Below, one piece after another: positions 1 through 5,061 of a DNA stretch of 35,164 nucleotides. The number at the start of each line of letters is the position of its first letter. Position 1 is the stretch's first letter. This DNA comes from Bacteroidales bacterium (GTDB lineage: Bacteria > Bacteroidota > Bacteroidia > Bacteroidales > WCHB1-69), in assembly GCA_017962275.1 (NCBI GenBank), contig JAGCVQ010000042.1:1-35164 (forward strand), in the 5' to 3' direction. The notes beneath the pieces are model-generated. The model searched no databases and was not told the origin of the DNA. It saw only the letters and a program-made list of their open reading frames with translations. Both the position numbers and the translations under genes were made by a program.

Positions 1-863
1 CCGCTGACCCCAACCGCGCCTTGATTGGTGACGACGAACACGGCTGGGCCGACGTCTCCGTGTTTAACTTCGAGGGCGGCTGCTACGCCAAGTGCATCAA
101 CCTCAGCGAGGAGAAGGAGCCCGACATCTTCCACGCCATCAAGCGTGACGCGCTGTTGGAGAACCTCGTGGTGGATGCCGAGGGCAACATCGATTTCAAC
201 TCCGCCGAGAAGACCGAGAACACCCGCGTCTCCTACCCCATCTACCATATCAACAACATCGTGCGTCCGGTTTCCCGCGGCACACACCCGAGCAAGATCA
301 TCTTCCTCTCCGCCGACGCTTTCGGCGTGCTGCCTCCCGTCTCCATCCTCAACAAGGAGCAGACCATGTACTACTACTTAAGCGGTTACACGGCCAAGTT
401 AGCCGGCACGGAGCGCGGTATCGTGACCCCGCAGCCGACCTTCTCCTCCTGTTTCGGCGCGGCTTTCCTGTTGCTGCACCCCACGAAATACGCCGAGGAG
501 CTGGCCAAGAAGCTCGAAGAACACAATGCCACGGCTTACTTGGTGAACACCGGATGGGCTGGCGGCGGATACGGCGTTGGTGAGCGTATCTCCCTGAAAG
601 CCACCCGCGCCATCATCACGGCCATCCTCAACGACGAGCTCAAGAGCTGCGAAACCGAAATCGTGAAACCTTTCAACTTGGTGATTCCCAAGCATGTTAC
701 CGGCGTGGATGACAATATCCTCAATCCCGAAAACAGCTGGACCGACAAGGCCGCTTTCAAGAAAAACGCTGACGAACTGGCCGCCGCTTTCATCAAGAAC
801 TTCGCCAACTTCAGCGACACCGAGGAAGGCAAGGCGTTGATTCCGTTCGGCCCGCAAATTTAA
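1..863 (+). CDS. pckA: Phosphoenolpyruvate carboxykinase (ATP), 3' part
   Basis: The open frame runs in from the left edge (first whole codon at base 3), so the start and roughly the first half of the protein lie outside the window. The visible 286 residues match the C-terminal half of ATP-dependent PEP carockykinase-type enzymes (PckA), which interconvert oxaloacetate plus ATP and PEP plus CO2 in the cytosol. Visible signatures are the metal/nucleotide motif IGDDEHGW right at the edge, [10 protein letters not shown], the [13 protein letters not shown] stretch, [14 protein letters not shown] and KLAGTERG. The upstream kinase-1 P-loop is not in view. Spacing and length agree with the roughly 540-residue bacterial family. 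In anaerobic Bacteroidetes the enzyme usually runs towards oxaloacetate in succinate/propionate fermentation (family knowledge). The TAA stop is followed at once by a heptad repeat tract. Confidence 0.97.
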
Positions 864-898: not shown

Positions 899-1032
899 TG
901 TTATTTCTAAATAATAATTCATTGAGCAGCCTCGAAGAGGCAAGACGCACGAAGTGCTAATAACCCCACATAAGCGAAGCGCAATGTGAGGGTTCGCAAA
1001 AGGTGATAGCCGCGTGCGAGAGCTCACCAAAA
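899..1032 (+). promoter_or_regulatory. Structured leader element, copy 1 (upstream of pepE)
   Basis: This intergenic segment holds a row of hairpins readable on the plus strand. Hairpin 1 is GCCTC-GAA-GAGGC (929-941). Hairpin 2 is GCAC-GAA-GTGC (947-957). Hairpin 3 pairs AACCCCACAT (962-971) with ATGTGAGGGTT (984-994), with a bulged A989 and an inner GC-GAA-GC mini-hairpin (974-980). An outer GGTGA...TCACC pair closes at 1028. The blocks TTGAGCA, AAGA, AATAACCCCACA and CACCAAAA, and the AT-rich lead-in, recur in copy 2 on the minus strand at 3474-3377. In both copies exactly 14 nt separate CACC from the downstream ATG. The segment could be a cis-acting RNA leader, a transcription or translation control site, or a dispersed palindromic repeat; function is unproven. 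Confidence 0.6.
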
Positions 1033-1042
1033 GAAAAAGAAT

Positions 1043-1801
1043 ATGAAACTGTTACTTATAAGCAACTCCACCAACTACAAGGAACCCTACCTGGGTTGGT
1101 GCCAGCCGTTGATCGCGGAGTTCCTGCAGGGAACGGCTGACGAAATTTTGTTTGTGCCGTACGCCGGCGTGGATGTGGGCGGCAAGGTCTATCCCGACAG
1201 CTACGACAGCTACACGGCTCGCGTGCGTGGCGTGTTCGAGAAACTCGGCAAGAAGGTGGTCTCCGTACACGAGGTCAGCGATCCCGTGGCGGCGGTCAAC
1301 AACGCGAAGTTCATCATGGTGGGCGGCGGCAACACCTTCCACCTGGTGGCCGAGCTGCACCGCAACAAGCTCATCAAGCCCATCCGCCGCAAGGTGATGG
1401 AGGGCACGCCCTACATGGGCTGGAGCGCGGGCTCCAACGTGGCCTGCCCGACGCTGTGTACCACCAACGACATGCCCATCGTGATGCCCGAGAGCTTCGA
1501 CTGCCTCGACCTGGTGCCGTTCCAGATTAACCCGCACTACATCGACCCCTATCCGGAGGAGATCAACGACCGCATCCGTCACGGCGGCGAGACCCGTCAG
1601 GTGCGCCTGAACGAGTACTTGGCCGTAAACAAGGAGAAGACCGTTGTCGGCCTGCGCGAAGGCACCGCCCTCTGGATCGAGAACGAGCACATCACCCTCA
1701 AGGGCACCCGCAACATGATCGTGCTCCGTTACGGTCAGGAGCCCGAGGAGATTGTGCCGGGTTCCGTGTTCGGGTACGACATAAAGGCTTTTAGCTGTTA
1801 G
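1043..1801 (+). CDS. pepE: Dipeptidase E (peptidase S51)
   Basis: The 252-residue protein is a cytosolic serine peptidase of family S51 that removes N-terminal aspartate from dipeptides. The glycine-rich VGGGNTFHL stretch is at about 93-101. The nucleophile motif GWSAGS puts Ser128 in the catalytic position, NPHYID supplies His165, and GLREGTAL supplies Glu206; these match Ser120, His157 and Glu192 of Salmonella PepE by spacing (family knowledge). It is about 20 residues longer than that enzyme. The start is the ATG 14 nt after the conserved CACC of the structured leader element; no strong Shine-Dalgarno sequence is seen, as is common in this phylum. The last codons (TTT AGC TGT TAG) lie in a heptad repeat, so the repeat appears to supply the C-terminal end and stop codon. 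Cyanophycinase-like S51 members are a less likely alternative. Confidence 0.93.
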   Translation: MKLLLISNSTNYKEPYLGWCQPLIAEFLQGTADEILFVPYAGVDVGGKVYPDSYDSYTARVRGVFEKLGKKVVSVHEVSDPVAAVNNAKFIMVGGGNTFHLVAELHRNKLIKPIRRKVMEGTPYMGWSAGSNVACPTLCTTNDMPIVMPESFDCLDLVPFQINPHYIDPYPEEINDRIRHGGETRQVRLNEYLAVNKEKTVVGLREGTALWIENEHITLKGTRNMIVLRYGQEPEEIVPGSVFGYDIKAFSC

Positions 1802-1818
1802 CTATTGGCTATTGGCTA
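1791..1818 (+). repeat. Heptad tandem repeat spanning pepE stop
   Basis: Four 7-bp units (TTAGCTG, TTAGCTA, TTGGCTA, TTGGCTA) overlap the last codons and the TAG stop of pepE (1799-1801). The coding sequence therefore ends inside the tract. Confidence 0.75.
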
Positions 1819-1829
1819 TAATAAACAAT

Positions 1830-1857
1830 GTAGGGGCGGATGATTATTCGCCCCTAC
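1830..1857. repeat. GTAG...CTAC palindrome, copy A
   Basis: A 28-bp inverted repeat with left arm GTAGGGGCGGATGA and right arm TTATTCGCCCCTAC; the outer 9 bp pair perfectly and the centre is imperfect. It lies between the convergent pepE and kamE genes, preceded by ACAAT like copy B. It may fold as a bidirectional transcription barrier, but no T-tract follows it on either strand. Confidence 0.75.
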
Positions 1858-1881
1858 GTGTTATGGTTCGGTTACAACAAT

Positions 1882-1910
1882 GTAGGGCTGTCGCAATGCG
1901 GCAGCCCTAC
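1882..1910. repeat. GTAG...CTAC palindrome, copy B
   Basis: A 29-bp inverted repeat: arms GTAGGGCTGTCGCA and TGCGGCAGCCCTAC around one central A, with a single mismatch that would be a G-U wobble in RNA. It has the same ends and length as copies A, C and D but a different core. It ends 9 nt before the kamE stop codon on the opposite strand, so it is in a position to terminate or stabilise the kamE transcript. Confidence 0.75.
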
Positions 1911-1919
1911 ATCGCAATA

Positions 1920-2708
1920 TTATCCGTTCATTCTCTTGTCGAGTTCCTGCGCGATGTACGATGCCACGTCGTCGGCGTAGGTGTTGGCACCGAAACCGGC
2001 ATCGTAACCTAGCTCCTTGGCCAGCTCGTGGGTGATACGCGGACCACCGCACACCACAATCATCTTGTCGCGAAGACCCTCGGCCTCGAGCATCTCAATC
2101 AGCTCGGTAAGGTTCTGAATGTGTACGTCTTTCTGGGTCACCGTCTGGGAGACTAACAGCGCATCGGCATGCAGTTCCACCGCCTTGGCGATGAACTCCT
2201 CGTTCGGCACCTGGCTGCCCATGTTGAGGGCATCGAACATGTCGTAACGCTCAATACCGTAGTGACCGGCATAGCCCTTCATGTTCATAATGGCGTCGAT
2301 GCCCACCGTGTGCGCATCGGTACCCGTACTGGCGCCCACCACCACGATCTTCCGGCCGATGTGCTCGCGGATGAAATCGTCAGTCTCCGGCATCGACCAC
2401 ACCGTGGATTCCACTTTCGGGACGTGGATGGTCGTGTAATCCACCGTGTGCGTGCAGGCACCGTAACAGTTCACGAAGGTATAGCCTTCTGTCAATTCTT
2501 TGAAATAAACGACTTGCGGGTTGTCGAAGCCCATCTTCTTCAGCAGCTGCTTGGCTGCCTCCACGGCCTCGTCGCCGCAGGGCACCGGCAGCGTGAAGCT
2601 CAGCTGCGTCTTGCCGTCGTTCATCGTGTCGCCGTAAGGCTTCACTTTGGTTAGGTCTAAGGTCTGATCAAAGTCCTTTTGATCCATTGAATATAATCCG
2701 CCACTCAT
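1920..2708 (-). CDS. kamE: Lysine 5,6-aminomutase, beta subunit
   Basis: KamE is the B12- and PLP-binding subunit of lysine 5,6-aminomutase, which moves the terminal amino group of D-lysine or L-beta-lysine to C5 in anaerobic lysine fermentation. The 262 residues equal the length of the clostridial protein. The base-off cobalamin motif DAHTVG starts at Asp131 with His133, and Lys144 (in MNMKGYAGHYG) sits at the position known to form the PLP aldimine, so both cofactor residues are conserved. The C-terminal VVCGGPRITHELAKELGYDAGFG stretch is typical of the Rossmann B12 domain. It is the last gene of the minus-strand order kamD, Tudor-like gene, kamE. A degenerate heptad tract and palindrome C separate it from the preceding gene. 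kamA, kdd, kce and kal are not in this window. Confidence 0.95.
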   Translation of the reverse strand: MSGGLYSMDQKDFDQTLDLTKVKPYGDTMNDGKTQLSFTLPVPCGDEAVEAAKQLLKKMGFDNPQVVYFKELTEGYTFVNCYGACTHTVDYTTIHVPKVESTVWSMPETDDFIREHIGRKIVVVGASTGTDAHTVGIDAIMNMKGYAGHYGIERYDMFDALNMGSQVPNEEFIAKAVELHADALLVSQTVTQKDVHIQNLTELIEMLEAEGLRDKMIVVCGGPRITHELAKELGYDAGFGANTYADDVASYIAQELDKRMNG

Positions 2709-2713
2709 TTTTC

Positions 2714-2768
2714 TAAGGTTTAAGGTTTAAGGGTTAGGGTTTATGGGTTATAGGGTTATAAGGTTAAA
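2714..2768 (-). repeat. Degenerate heptad tract upstream of kamE
   Basis: On the plus strand the tract reads as TAAGGTT units drifting through TAAGGGT, TAGGGTT and TATGGGT; on the kamE strand this is AACCTTA and relatives. It ends a few bases before the kamE ATG, so the kamE leader is largely made of this repeat. Confidence 0.7.
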
Positions 2769-2780
2769 AGATTGCGGGTT

Positions 2781-2808
2781 GTAGGGGCGAATAATTATTC
2801 GCCCCTAC
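2781..2808. repeat. GTAG...CTAC palindrome, copy C (perfect)
   Basis: A perfect 28-bp palindrome: GTAGGGGCGAATAA followed directly by its reverse complement. It differs from copy A at only two positions. It lies 9 nt past the stop codon of the 182-aa minus-strand gene, within the kam operon between that gene and kamE. It could act as an intercistronic RNA-processing or attenuation hairpin. Confidence 0.85.
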
Positions 2809-2817
2809 ATATACATC

Positions 2818-3366
2818 TTAATTGGATTTTAAGCCGACAAAATAGTCTTCCTTGTTCTCGAACAGCACGTTGAACGAGGTCATGCTGCCGTAGATGCGGG
2901 AGATGTACTGCTGGAGGTTGAATTTCTCCTCGTCGGTGAGGGAGGCACTGCTGTTGATGTTCTGTTCGAGCACGCGCAGGCGGTCGCGCATCATGACGAT
3001 CTTGTGGAAGAAGGTCTCCACGGGAATCTCCTTGGGGGCGAGGTCCTTGTTGGCGGGTTGCAGAATCATAGTGCCGCCCTGCCACTTCTTGCCCAGCTCG
3101 GCCTTATATTCGATGCCGTTGTACTGGGTCAGGATCTGCGTCAGCACCTGCTTGAACTCGCGGATGTTGAGTTTCGGGGTGTCATCATCCACTTCATTAG
3201 CCTCGATGACCTCGAGCTCCACGGCCGCTTTGGAGAATTCCAGCTCGCCGCCGCGCACGAAGATAATCTTGTACGTCAGCGCGTTGTTCTGACTGATGAT
3301 GCCCTCGCCGTACTTTTCGTGGGACACTCTTGTTCCGACTGAAAGGTTGTCTATATCGTATTCCAT
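2818..3366 (-). CDS. Tudor-like protein of unknown function in kam operon
   Basis: A 182-residue soluble protein with no signal peptide or membrane segment. I do not recognise a named family with certainty. Residues about 7-50 (NLSVGTRVSHEKYGEGII... IIFVRGGELEFSKAAVELEVIE) resemble the small beta-barrel (Tudor/SH3-like) found at the C-terminus of UvrD/PcrA helicases. The remainder looks alpha-helical, with an acidic linker (EVDDDTPK). I chose the ATG at 3366 rather than the in-frame GTG at 3393, because the GTG lies inside a hairpin of the leader element and the ATG stands 14 nt from its end, as in pepE. Its place between kamD and kamE suggests a role tied to the aminomutase, for instance assembly or reactivation of the B12 enzyme; this is inference from position only. 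Confidence 0.8.
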   Translation of the reverse strand: MEYDIDNLSVGTRVSHEKYGEGIISQNNALTYKIIFVRGGELEFSKAAVELEVIEANEVDDDTPKLNIREFKQVLTQILTQYNGIEYKAELGKKWQGGTMILQPANKDLAPKEIPVETFFHKIVMMRDRLRVLEQNINSSASLTDEEKFNLQQYISRIYGSMTSFNVLFENKEDYFVGLKSN

Positions 3367-3376
3367 ATCTATATCG

Positions 3377-3474
3377 TTTTGGTGTGTCCCCACACTTCCG
3401 TGTGGGGTTATTGAGCTCTACCGAGCTCTTGTCCCTTCGGGACTGCTCAAAGAATTATTTTCTTTAAAAATAAC
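3377..3474 (-). promoter_or_regulatory. Structured leader element, copy 2 (kamD/Tudor-like gap)
   Basis: On the minus strand this holds hairpin 1 GTCCC-GAA-GGGAC (plus coordinates 3443-3431), hairpin 2 GAGCTC-GGTA-GAGCTC (3428-3413) and hairpin 3 CCCCACAC-GGAA-GTGTGGGG (3407-3388), all perfectly paired. The blocks TTGAGCA, CAAGA, AATAACCCCACA and CACCAAAA, plus the GTTATTTnTAAA lead-in, are shared with copy 1. Between the copies hairpin 1 keeps its pairing through two compensatory changes (C-G to T-A and T-A to C-G). CACC ends 14 nt before the ATG at 3366. The element follows the heptad tract of kamD. It lies in an operon, so it may control expression of the two downstream genes; a terminator or a mobile palindromic repeat are alternatives. 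Confidence 0.6.
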
Positions 3475-3498
3475 TGCTAACTACTAACTGCTAACTGA
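3471..3498 (-). repeat. Heptad tandem repeat after kamD
   Basis: Plus-strand units are TAACTGC, TAACTAC, TAACTGC, TAACTGA, read on the kamD strand as GTTAGCA-type repeats. The tract starts 3 nt after the kamD stop and runs straight into structured element copy 2. Confidence 0.8.
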
Positions 3499-3501
3499 TG
3501 A

Positions 3502-5061
3502 TTACCATCTCTCTTTCATCATCTTGATGAACGGGTTGAAGTAGTTGTCGCCTTTGGTGACGACGCCGGCGAGGCCCTTGCCGCCGTCCTTCGGACGTTT
3601 CACGTCGCCGAAGATACCCTTCTCCAGTGCGGTGAAGAGGCCTTCCTGGACGATTTGCTGCAGCAGCTCGATGGCGTTGTTGAGGACGACCTTGGCGCGC
3701 TCACGGCAGATGCCGCCTTCGCGGAACTCCATCTCCTCGCCGATGCTGCGCATGTCGTTGAAGATGTAGCGGGCGTTCTCAATGGAGAGGTAACGGTCGC
3801 TCATGAACGGCGTGTGGATGGCCTCGGTGGGCATACCCAACAGCTGGATACCCTGGTGCGTCCAGATACCGATGATGTTGAAGAGTGCGTCCTGAATGTG
3901 GCCGCGGAAGATGTTGCCGGTCATGAATTTCGTGGGCGGCATGTACTTCAGCGTGGCCTTCGGGAAGATCTCGCGGGTCATCTGCGCCTGCGCAAGCTCC
4001 AACAGGAAACCGTTCTCCAACATCGGGTCCATCTCGAAGGCGTGGCCCAAGCCCATCTGCTCTTCAGGCAGACCGGCCAACAAGGCCAACTGCTCGTTGA
4101 TGAGGTCGGAGGCGAGCACCGTGTGGGCGGCCTCCACAGCATCAGCGGTGGTGAGGTAGTTGTCCTCGCCCGTGTTGATGATGACACCGGCATAACCGTT
4201 GATGATGCGGGAGAAGTACTGGTCGATGAGGGTACGCTGCGGGTTGATGTCGCGGAAGAGGATGCCGTAAAGGGCGTCGTTCAACATCACGTCGAGGCGT
4301 TCGAGGGCGCCCATGGCTGCGATTTCCGGCATACAAAGTCCTGAGCAGTAGTTACATAAGCGGATGTAACGGCCTTGCTCTTCGCCCACTTCGTCAAGAG
4401 CCTTACGCATGATGCGGAAGTTCTCCTGCGTGGCAAACGTGCCGCCGAAACCCTCAGTGGTCGCGCCGTAAGGCACGTAGTCCAACAAGCTCTGACCAGT
4501 GGTACGGATCACGGCGATGACGTCAGCACCTTGACGGGCACCGGCCTGCGCTTGCACCACGTCCTCGTAGATGTTACCCGTCGCCACGATGATGTAAAGG
4601 TAGGGTTTCGGGCCTTCGCCGATGGTGTTCAGGTACTCGTTACGCTTGGCCACATTGCCCTTGATGCGGGTGAGGCACTGTTCGATGTAGGGTTGGATGG
4701 ATTTTTGGATGTCAGCCAGCGGATGCAGCGGCAACGAAGTGACGTTCAGTTCGTTGCGGGAAATGCGCTCGGCAATCTCTTGCGGGGTCGCGCCGGTCTC
4801 CAGAATGGCGTTGCCCATGAAATAGAGCACGCCCTGACTGAGCACGCCGGCCTCGAGAAGGGCATCCACCACCCTGTTGGGCAGCGGCACCTCGTTCTCG
4901 TCAATGCCGTCAATGCCGATCAGACGACAGAGCGTACGCTCCACCGTCACGGTCGTGTAACCGTCCACAAACTCCTGGACCTGGTCCGCAATCTGCTTGG
5001 CCAACTGCTTTGCCACAGCCACTTGGTTGAAATCCAGTCCGAGTTTCGATTTTTCTGTCAT
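3502..5061 (-). CDS. kamD: Lysine 5,6-aminomutase, alpha subunit
   Basis: KamD is the large TIM-barrel subunit of lysine 5,6-aminomutase; with KamE it forms the adenosylcobalamin/PLP enzyme that rearranges D-lysine or beta-lysine. At 519 residues it fits the family length of about 516. Recognisable stretches include YLYIIVATGNIYEDVVQAQ, the GADVIAVIRTTGQSLLDY strand-loop, PYGATTEGFGGTF, and YCSGLCMPEIAAMGALERLD. The ATG at 5061 sits about 48 nt downstream of a TATTTTTG box at 5116-5109. It heads the minus-strand operon kamD, Tudor-like gene, kamE. Divergent to it is the PorT-like gene. Confidence 0.95.
   Translation of the reverse strand: MTEKSKLGLDFNQVAVAKQLAKQIADQVQEFVDGYTTVTVERTLCRLIGIDGIDENEVPLPNRVVDALLEAGVLSQGVLYFMGNAILETGATPQEIAERISRNELNVTSLPLHPLADIQKSIQPYIEQCLTRIKGNVAKRNEYLNTIGEGPKPYLYIIVATGNIYEDVVQAQAGARQGADVIAVIRTTGQSLLDYVPYGATTEGFGGTFATQENFRIMRKALDEVGEEQGRYIRLCNYCSGLCMPEIAAMGALERLDVMLNDALYGILFRDINPQRTLIDQYFSRIINGYAGVIINTGEDNYLTTADAVEAAHTVLASDLINEQLALLAGLPEEQMGLGHAFEMDPMLENGFLLELAQAQMTREIFPKATLKYMPPTKFMTGNIFRGHIQDALFNIIGIWTHQGIQLLGMPTEAIHTPFMSDRYLSIENARYIFNDMRSIGEEMEFREGGICRERAKVVLNNAIELLQQIVQEGLFTALEKGIFGDVKRPKDGGKGLAGVVTKGDNYFNPFIKMMKERW

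Follow-up and report, generated by a model that had tools for sequence, protein, structure and literature searches.

The gaps upstream of pepE and of a Tudor-like kam gene in a 35,164-nt stretch of a Bacteroidales genome (GenBank GCA_017962275.1, contig JAGCVQ010000042.1) each hold a copy of a short element of about 75-95 nt, composed of an AT-rich 5' tail, the hairpins H1 and H2, an [ATG]TAA tag and a third hairpin, H3. The whole stretch, hereafter the window, is contig 97 of the 105 contigs of the 2.77-Mb genome G000 (the own genome). Computational analysis revealed that the element belongs to a dispersed family with paired stems, that it is present or absent at the same places in close species, that it lies mostly in sense, in gaps devoid of a promoter motif, and that related repeats stand as inverted pairs at transposase genes carrying the signature of TnpAY1 subclass 1.2. 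The element is therefore probably a non-autonomous mobile repeat that resembles the repetitive extragenic palindromes (REPs) and most probably owes its spread to Y1 (HUH tyrosine) transposases of subclass 1.2 type. A sequence-only reading of the window had favored a cis-acting RNA leader over its main alternative, a dispersed palindromic repeat; it is this alternative that fits the at least 121 copies of the own genome and their presence or absence between close species.

A dispersed three-hairpin family in one genus

Searching the own genome by sequence similarity gave 44 matches. A covariance model, with a three-helix structure drawn up for this analysis, was built from 37 copies (36 regular-expression hits from 30 loci with one spurious hit dropped, the L001 copy removed and both window copies added) and yielded 151 matches in the own genome at E ≤ 0.1, including 121 at E ≤ 1e-6, a count to be read as at least 121 copies, scoring having covered 150 of the 978 first-look candidates. 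Among 40 genomes searched at E ≤ 0.01, the model matched the own genome and 23 of 23 congeners (2 to 120 matches each, the high counts being lower bounds with 119 candidates scored per genome) and none of the 16 genomes from other families of the order, so that the search proposed in the sequence-only reading did find further copies with their stems kept. In addition, an exact-pattern scan of genome contigs returned 60 stretches, all from uncultured Bacteroidetes or Bacteroidales by title and many from ruminant samples, and the element core had no match in viral contigs (exact pattern) or in phages and plasmids (blastn). The family is extragenic, with four of the 121 own copies overlapping predicted genes, and the ~16 nt on the 5' side of the core are AT-rich and conserved across it (position information). 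The tag tetranucleotide was ATAA in 63 own copies, TTAA in 31, GTAA in 9, GTAG in 1 and another in 5, and was not found in 12. Three successive H2-H3 units at C91:9720-9943 (L016) represent a local tandem amplification.

The sequence-only reading had observed that H1 is changed on both sides with pairing kept, being GCCTC-GAA-GAGGC in copy 1 and GTCCC-GAA-GGGAC in copy 2, and such changes were also found across the family. In an alignment of 113 distinct copies, 98.6% of the stem cells were paired, and double-sided changes numbered 123 vs 32.9 in shuffles, occurring in 8 of 17 pairs with a covariation score of 0.204 vs 0.102 shuffled; as this is a model-fitted alignment of related copies, the values are support and not proof. 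Perfect-hairpin tests revealed GNA loops in 102 of 109 perfect H1 and 76 of 88 perfect H2 hairpins, with a C-G closing pair in 107 of the 109 and 83 of the 88, respectively; a perfect H2 was absent in 33 of the 121 own copies. A motif search without folding located C-GNA-G or C-GNNA-G within the inner H3 of 90 of the 121 copies. GNA and GNNA loops closed with G-C have been described as giving extraordinarily stable DNA mini-hairpins (PMC4686876), which fits with recognition of the element as single-stranded DNA (ssDNA). Moreover, G.T pairs outnumbered A.C pairs by 39 to 13, with the surplus located in H3, which suggests that the sense strand is the structured one. As a whole, the unit showed no apparent terminal inverted repeat in the aligned copies.

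Turnover, orientation and promoter context

Comparison of the two window gaps between species revealed that the element was gained or lost at both, and it is thus not a conserved leader. At the pepE gap, among 11 close species (protein identity ≥93%; one truncated locus left out), the full element was found in four (G000, G016, G010 and G012), an H3-containing remnant in three (G013, G006 and G020) and no model hit in four (G009, G002, G042 and G019); 15 distant species gave no hit either, one of them with only 41 nt of upstream sequence. At the kam gap, the element was present in five of 12 close species (G000, G020, G002, G012 and G042) and absent in seven, of which one, G019, was matched without the first 25 protein residues, and 12 distant species had no hit, one of them being cut by a contig end. 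The two patterns disagree across species. Empty sites, which the sequence-only reading had named, for sister strains, as a sign of a mobile repeat, were found in close species at both loci. In G009, the kam orthologue and its upstream neighbor nearly abut (stop-T-ATG). A comparison of the kam locus of G010 with that of G020 uncovered a clean 87-nt difference covering the element from its AT-rich tail up to and including H3; the two species share ACA at the junction, and 58 of 60 upstream bases are identical. Furthermore, a syntenic screen of 230 locus pairs (some representing one place in two loci), 15 of which were aligned, showed that gap contents were often replaced, and between L087 and L100 the 3' half of the element was exchanged for another hairpin module.

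Copies were placed relative to genes predicted with a home-made hexamer scorer, whose predicted starts may be off. The 121 own copies comprised 88 of class SS (sense, between co-directional genes), 10 AA, 8 SA and 4 AS, and the remaining 11 lacked a neighbor and/or overlapped a predicted gene; the 65 exact-pattern copies at 60 loci of other species comprised 50 SS, 5 AS, 2 SA, 1 AA and 7 incomplete cases. The sense orientation relative to flanking genes reported for the window thus predominates in the family, with a sense-to-antisense ratio in tandem gaps of 88:10 in the own genome (P = 5e-17) and 50:1 elsewhere (P = 2e-14). Divergent gaps accounted for 4 of 110 element gaps vs 25 of 112 element-free gaps in the own genome (P = 4e-5). 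For the 88 sense tandem-gap copies, the median distance from core end to start codon was 41 nt. The spacing of exactly 14 nt from the end of CACC to the ATG, which the sequence-only reading had stressed, was confirmed in both window copies but found in only four of these 88, and hence is not general.

TAnnTTTG is the promoter motif of Bacteroidetes. In element-free gaps (L066-L125 and the G020 stretch), it was detected in 26 of 28 divergent gaps when both strands were considered and in 1 of 29 convergent gaps when only one was, and it behaves as a promoter marker in these genomes. Among own tandem gaps of 60-300 nt, the motif was present in 0 of 83 sense-copy gaps vs 34 of 65 element-free gaps (2 of 86 vs 39 of 71 for all gaps ≥60 nt), and in 8 of 10 antisense-copy gaps of any length; in other species it occurred in 1 of 43 sense, 1 of 1 antisense and 70 of 214 element-free gaps. 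Judging from this motif, sense copies would lie mostly in intercistronic RNA or 5' untranslated regions, and antisense copies mostly after the last gene of a transcript. The sense gaps without a canonical motif also raise the idea that the element itself may carry a promoter. In the divergent gaps with a copy (four own, five other), a strict motif stood upstream in sense in five of nine cases, one of them at 407 nt, and one gap of this group (C52) also holds a tRNA-like stretch.

To characterize the downstream genes, 20 of 84 proteins 3' of sense copies, drawn from a shuffled list in which four entries were skipped, were searched against Pfam. Matches were obtained for 19, with varied functions including RuvC, TsaD, IspD, UvrC, ABC transporters, acyl-CoA dehydrogenase and C25 peptidase, and DUF3857 was common to two of the 20. 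The downstream genes are thus diverse among the 20 examined.

In the window itself (Table 1), both copies with their shared blocks in the same order were located as the sequence-only reading had described. The pattern TTGAGCAGYCYCGAAGRGRC, derived from them, matched the window twice, at the copies alone (0.05 expected at ≤3 mismatches), and AATAACCCCACA (≤2 mismatches) gave 3 matches vs 2.2 expected, that is, chance level. RNA folding of the two copies against shuffles gave z = -4.9 and -6.7, and Rfam had no match in the window at gathering score. The H2 of copy 2 is GAGCTC-GGTA-GAGCTC, and its H3 is short. Short tandem repeats, often with a period of ~7, follow stop codons at 864-897, 1795-1820, 2715-2760 and 3475-3500 of the window and in other own gaps, often on the 5' side of the element; period-7 runs of ≥12 occurred in 25 of 86 gaps with a sense element and in 14 of 71 without an element, but in none of the 10 antisense gaps or the shuffles.

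Table 1. Coordinates of the two element copies and their neighboring genes in the window
Feature	Positions	Strand	Remarks
Lead-in of copy 1	902..917	+	AT-rich
Copy 1 core	918..991	+	H1 929-941, H2 947-957, TAATAA 958-963, H3 964-991; 90.0 bits; DNA fold
Gene 3' of copy 1	1043..1801	+	pepE as named in the sequence-only reading
Co-directional gene 5' of copy 1	3..863	+	
Copy 2 core	3388..3454	-	H1 3443-3431, H2 3428-3413, AATAA 3412-3408, H3 3407-3388; 59.7 bits; DNA fold
Gene 3' of copy 2	2818..3366	-	Tudor-like kam gene as named in the sequence-only reading
Co-directional gene 5' of copy 2	3502..5061	-	

Y1 transposase genes and their flanking repeats

Of 30 genomes from the genus, 29, the own genome included, carried genes of family PF01797 (Y1_Tnp), at one to four places in each. 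The Y---Q--HH signature was found in 46 of the 48 distinct Y1 genes, the others being one with Y---NP (own C101) and one broken gene. This signature is that of TnpAY1 subclass 1.2 as listed by Quentin et al. 2018, with which the present genes also share low copy number and occurrence in Bacteroidetes; Table 1 of that survey has the entry 'no' for hairpins associated with the subclass, whereas most of the genes sampled here have inverted-repeat flanks with hairpins (PMC6006769). The protein encoded on own contig C72 scored 72.4 bits for Y1_Tnp and 58.1 for the NCBIfam IS200 transposase model (cut-off 55), but only 23.7 for the REP transposase model, below its cut-off of 80. Its gene is bracketed by inverted copies of a repeat that has TAATAA and H3 in common with the dispersed family (TAATAACCCCACA..TGTGGGG). 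A total of 49 matches to this repeat were found in the own genome, many of them covering H3 alone, and they include some five additional close inverted pairs. Model hits (E ≤ 0.002) paired in inverted, inward-facing orientation bracketed the Y1 gene in 10 of 20 loci of one set (L281, L286-L291, L296, L299 and L300, by visual reading of model hits).

A model-free analysis demonstrated that 34 of 44 Y1 genes of the genus lie between inverted repeats (score ≥14); the set includes broken genes, and three of the 47 loci were left out because their flanks were short. The corresponding control value was 3 of 253 genes on a stretch of G020 serving as background, which is repeat-poor (four strong and two weak hits), and repeat-rich controls were hence added, giving 10 of 196 and 10 of 257. 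Of 149 genomes sampled across the order, 74 contained homologues of P0001. A flank test on 30 loci with such homologues (own omitted, one dropped for a short flank) revealed inverted-repeat flanks for 20 of 27 Y1 genes in other families, plus the one congener, vs 1 of 20 controls.

The element and these genes resemble several known systems in part. Like REPs and their doublets (REPINs) with TnpAREP, also called RAYT, the family consists of high-copy extragenic hairpins (121 own copies; the criterion is >100), the C72 repeat forms inverted doublets, and the dispersed element avoids divergent gaps in the own genome, REPs being reported mainly from unidirectional and convergent gaps (PMC3733652). 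As in a REPtron, the transposase gene lies between inverted repeats and a tetranucleotide stands 5' of the hairpin foot. The differences are that the transposase carries Y---Q--HH (class 1) instead of the Y---NP of RAYT (class 2), that the tag is mostly ATAA or TTAA instead of GT[AG]G, and that the dispersed unit is asymmetric, three-hairpinned and mostly in sense. Hairpins of the IS200/IS605 family are recognized as ssDNA. The C72 protein, passing the NCBIfam IS200 model, is like IS200/IS605 elements and their miniature derivatives, but here 0-4 Y1 places per sampled genome accompany many small repeats, and the flanking repeats are inverted. In the open-access literature searched, no title was found that links REPs to subclass 1.2 or treats this element.

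Further repeats were observed at Y1 genes. A second own Y1 gene, on C2, is flanked by a different hairpin family; it belongs to a second Y1 subgroup (C2:13540 (L282), L284, L292 and L294) with the flanking hairpin pair CCCAGGG..CCCTGGG, and in the own copy C46:4696 an H1 part of the first family is joined to this module. In other Bacteroidales families, several Y1 flanks (L326, L327, L329, L336, L338, L339 and others of L325-L352) comprise two hairpins, the first of them small, joined by a linker that has ..ATAACC or a related sequence at its end; the plan is similar and the sequence different. In addition, the window holds two palindromes at 1830-1858 and 2781-2808, GTAGGGGCG...CGCCCCTAC, resembling 'double-foot' REPs with GTAG/CTAC ends and possibly belonging to the C101 Y1 gene (YIQNNP motif); a similar unit, GTAGAGACGC..GCGTCTCTAC, interrupts the H2 region in C91:1659, C90:22583 and C25:42481.

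Proposed mobilization, rival explanations and significance

In the proposed mechanism, the sense strand would fold as ssDNA into mini-hairpins, mostly with C-GNA-G loops, and a Y1 protein would recognize this strand and cut and rejoin it beside the hairpins, much as E. coli TnpAREP does with REPs, for which recognition, cleavage and recombination of single-stranded REPs in vitro are reported (PMC8266576). Selection would then sort the orientations, in that transcription passes sense copies and may stop at antisense copies, whose RNA would hold UUCG-loop hairpins and a short U-rich stretch; such a hindrance would give rise to the orientation bias, with antisense copies persisting chiefly downstream of the final gene of a transcript. 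The bias might also arise if transcription exposes the coding strand as ssDNA.

Several observations weigh against this interpretation. That a Y1 transposase moves the element is what we infer from sequence comparison, and the C72 repeat is without H2 and has an H1 unlike that of the dispersed element. In a second set of 30 Y1 loci, no inward pair had both hits at E ≤ 0.01, with a weak inward pair at L278 and mixed hits at L272 and L273, and in the copy-rich G002 and G012 no gene with matching flanks was found among those examined. The tag was present at both transposase flanks in 3 of 47 and 5 of 28 cases vs 1 of 253 controls in the weak NTAR-tag test, and the tetranucleotide of the element is mostly ATAA or TTAA, not GTAG. 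Moreover, the presence/absence patterns fit loss as well as gain, and the G.T surplus is expected of RNA and equally of folded ssDNA. As for orientation, four of the nine divergent-gap copies have no strict upstream motif (two of them have a near-match by eye), the antisense gaps (n = 10) are longer than the sense gaps (mean 292 vs 203 nt), and the terminator activity that antisense copies may have is suggested by their sequence and these 10 gaps.

A cis-acting regulatory leader RNA controlling the downstream gene, whether riboswitch-like or protein-bound, would account for the covarying stems, for the sense orientation 5' of start codons (3' neighbor in sense for 96 of 118 own copies having one and 58 of 61 elsewhere) and for the strict promoter motif upstream of five of nine divergent-gap copies. 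The RNA side of the sequence-only proposal is thus retained in part, as the stems covary, the copies are strongly sense-oriented and the gaps are likely transcribed through; a dedicated leader is nevertheless very unlikely in view of the at least 121 copies, the diversity of the 20 downstream genes examined, the turnover between close species at both loci, the related repeats at transposase genes and the lack of an Rfam match in the window. A REP-like repeat retained for a job in RNA, such as stabilizing or processing mRNA between operon genes, is a less implausible though still unlikely explanation: orientation tracks promoter context, the stems are conserved, H3 has a G.T excess, and RNA roles of transcribed REPs have been proposed (PMC3733652), but the element is absent from orthologous operons, whose genes nearly abut in one species.

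The orientation bias might instead reflect replication only, with Y1 elements entering the lagging-strand template, as documented for two IS200/IS605 members (PMC6006769). Gene strands on 400 kb of the congener G020, however, stand at 161:124, making replication bias alone unlikely, since a ratio of 88:10 would be improbable at 56% (P = 3e-13) or 70% (P = 3e-6) and orientation goes with promoter presence; replication-strand bias was rejected as the sole cause on this comparison and is deemed highly improbable. A miniature inverted-repeat transposable element of a double-strand (DDE) transposase would likewise be short, repeated, palindromic and intergenic, but it is scarcely credible here, given that the whole unit has no apparent terminal inverted repeat in the aligned copies, that 3 nt are shared at the one clean junction and that related repeats adjoin Y1 genes.

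Spread of a REP-like repeat by Y1 transposases thus remains the preferred explanation. A broader proposal, for which the balance is about even, is that Bacteroidales TnpAY1 of subclass 1.2 are the transposases of an unrecognized REP class, made of paired mini-hairpins and bearing a TAA-type tag in place of GTAG, which in one genus spread a three-hairpin element through operons; transcription would set the orientation of this element, with sense copies inside transcripts and antisense copies at transcript ends, where they may act as one-way terminators. If true, this would supply the REP partner that the main survey does not list for this transposase subclass, and would broaden the REP/REPtron concept to take in class 1 Y1 proteins of a gut-dominant order. 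It would also offer a natural experiment on the tolerance of mobile hairpins in operons, comparing sense with antisense copies and filled with empty sites.

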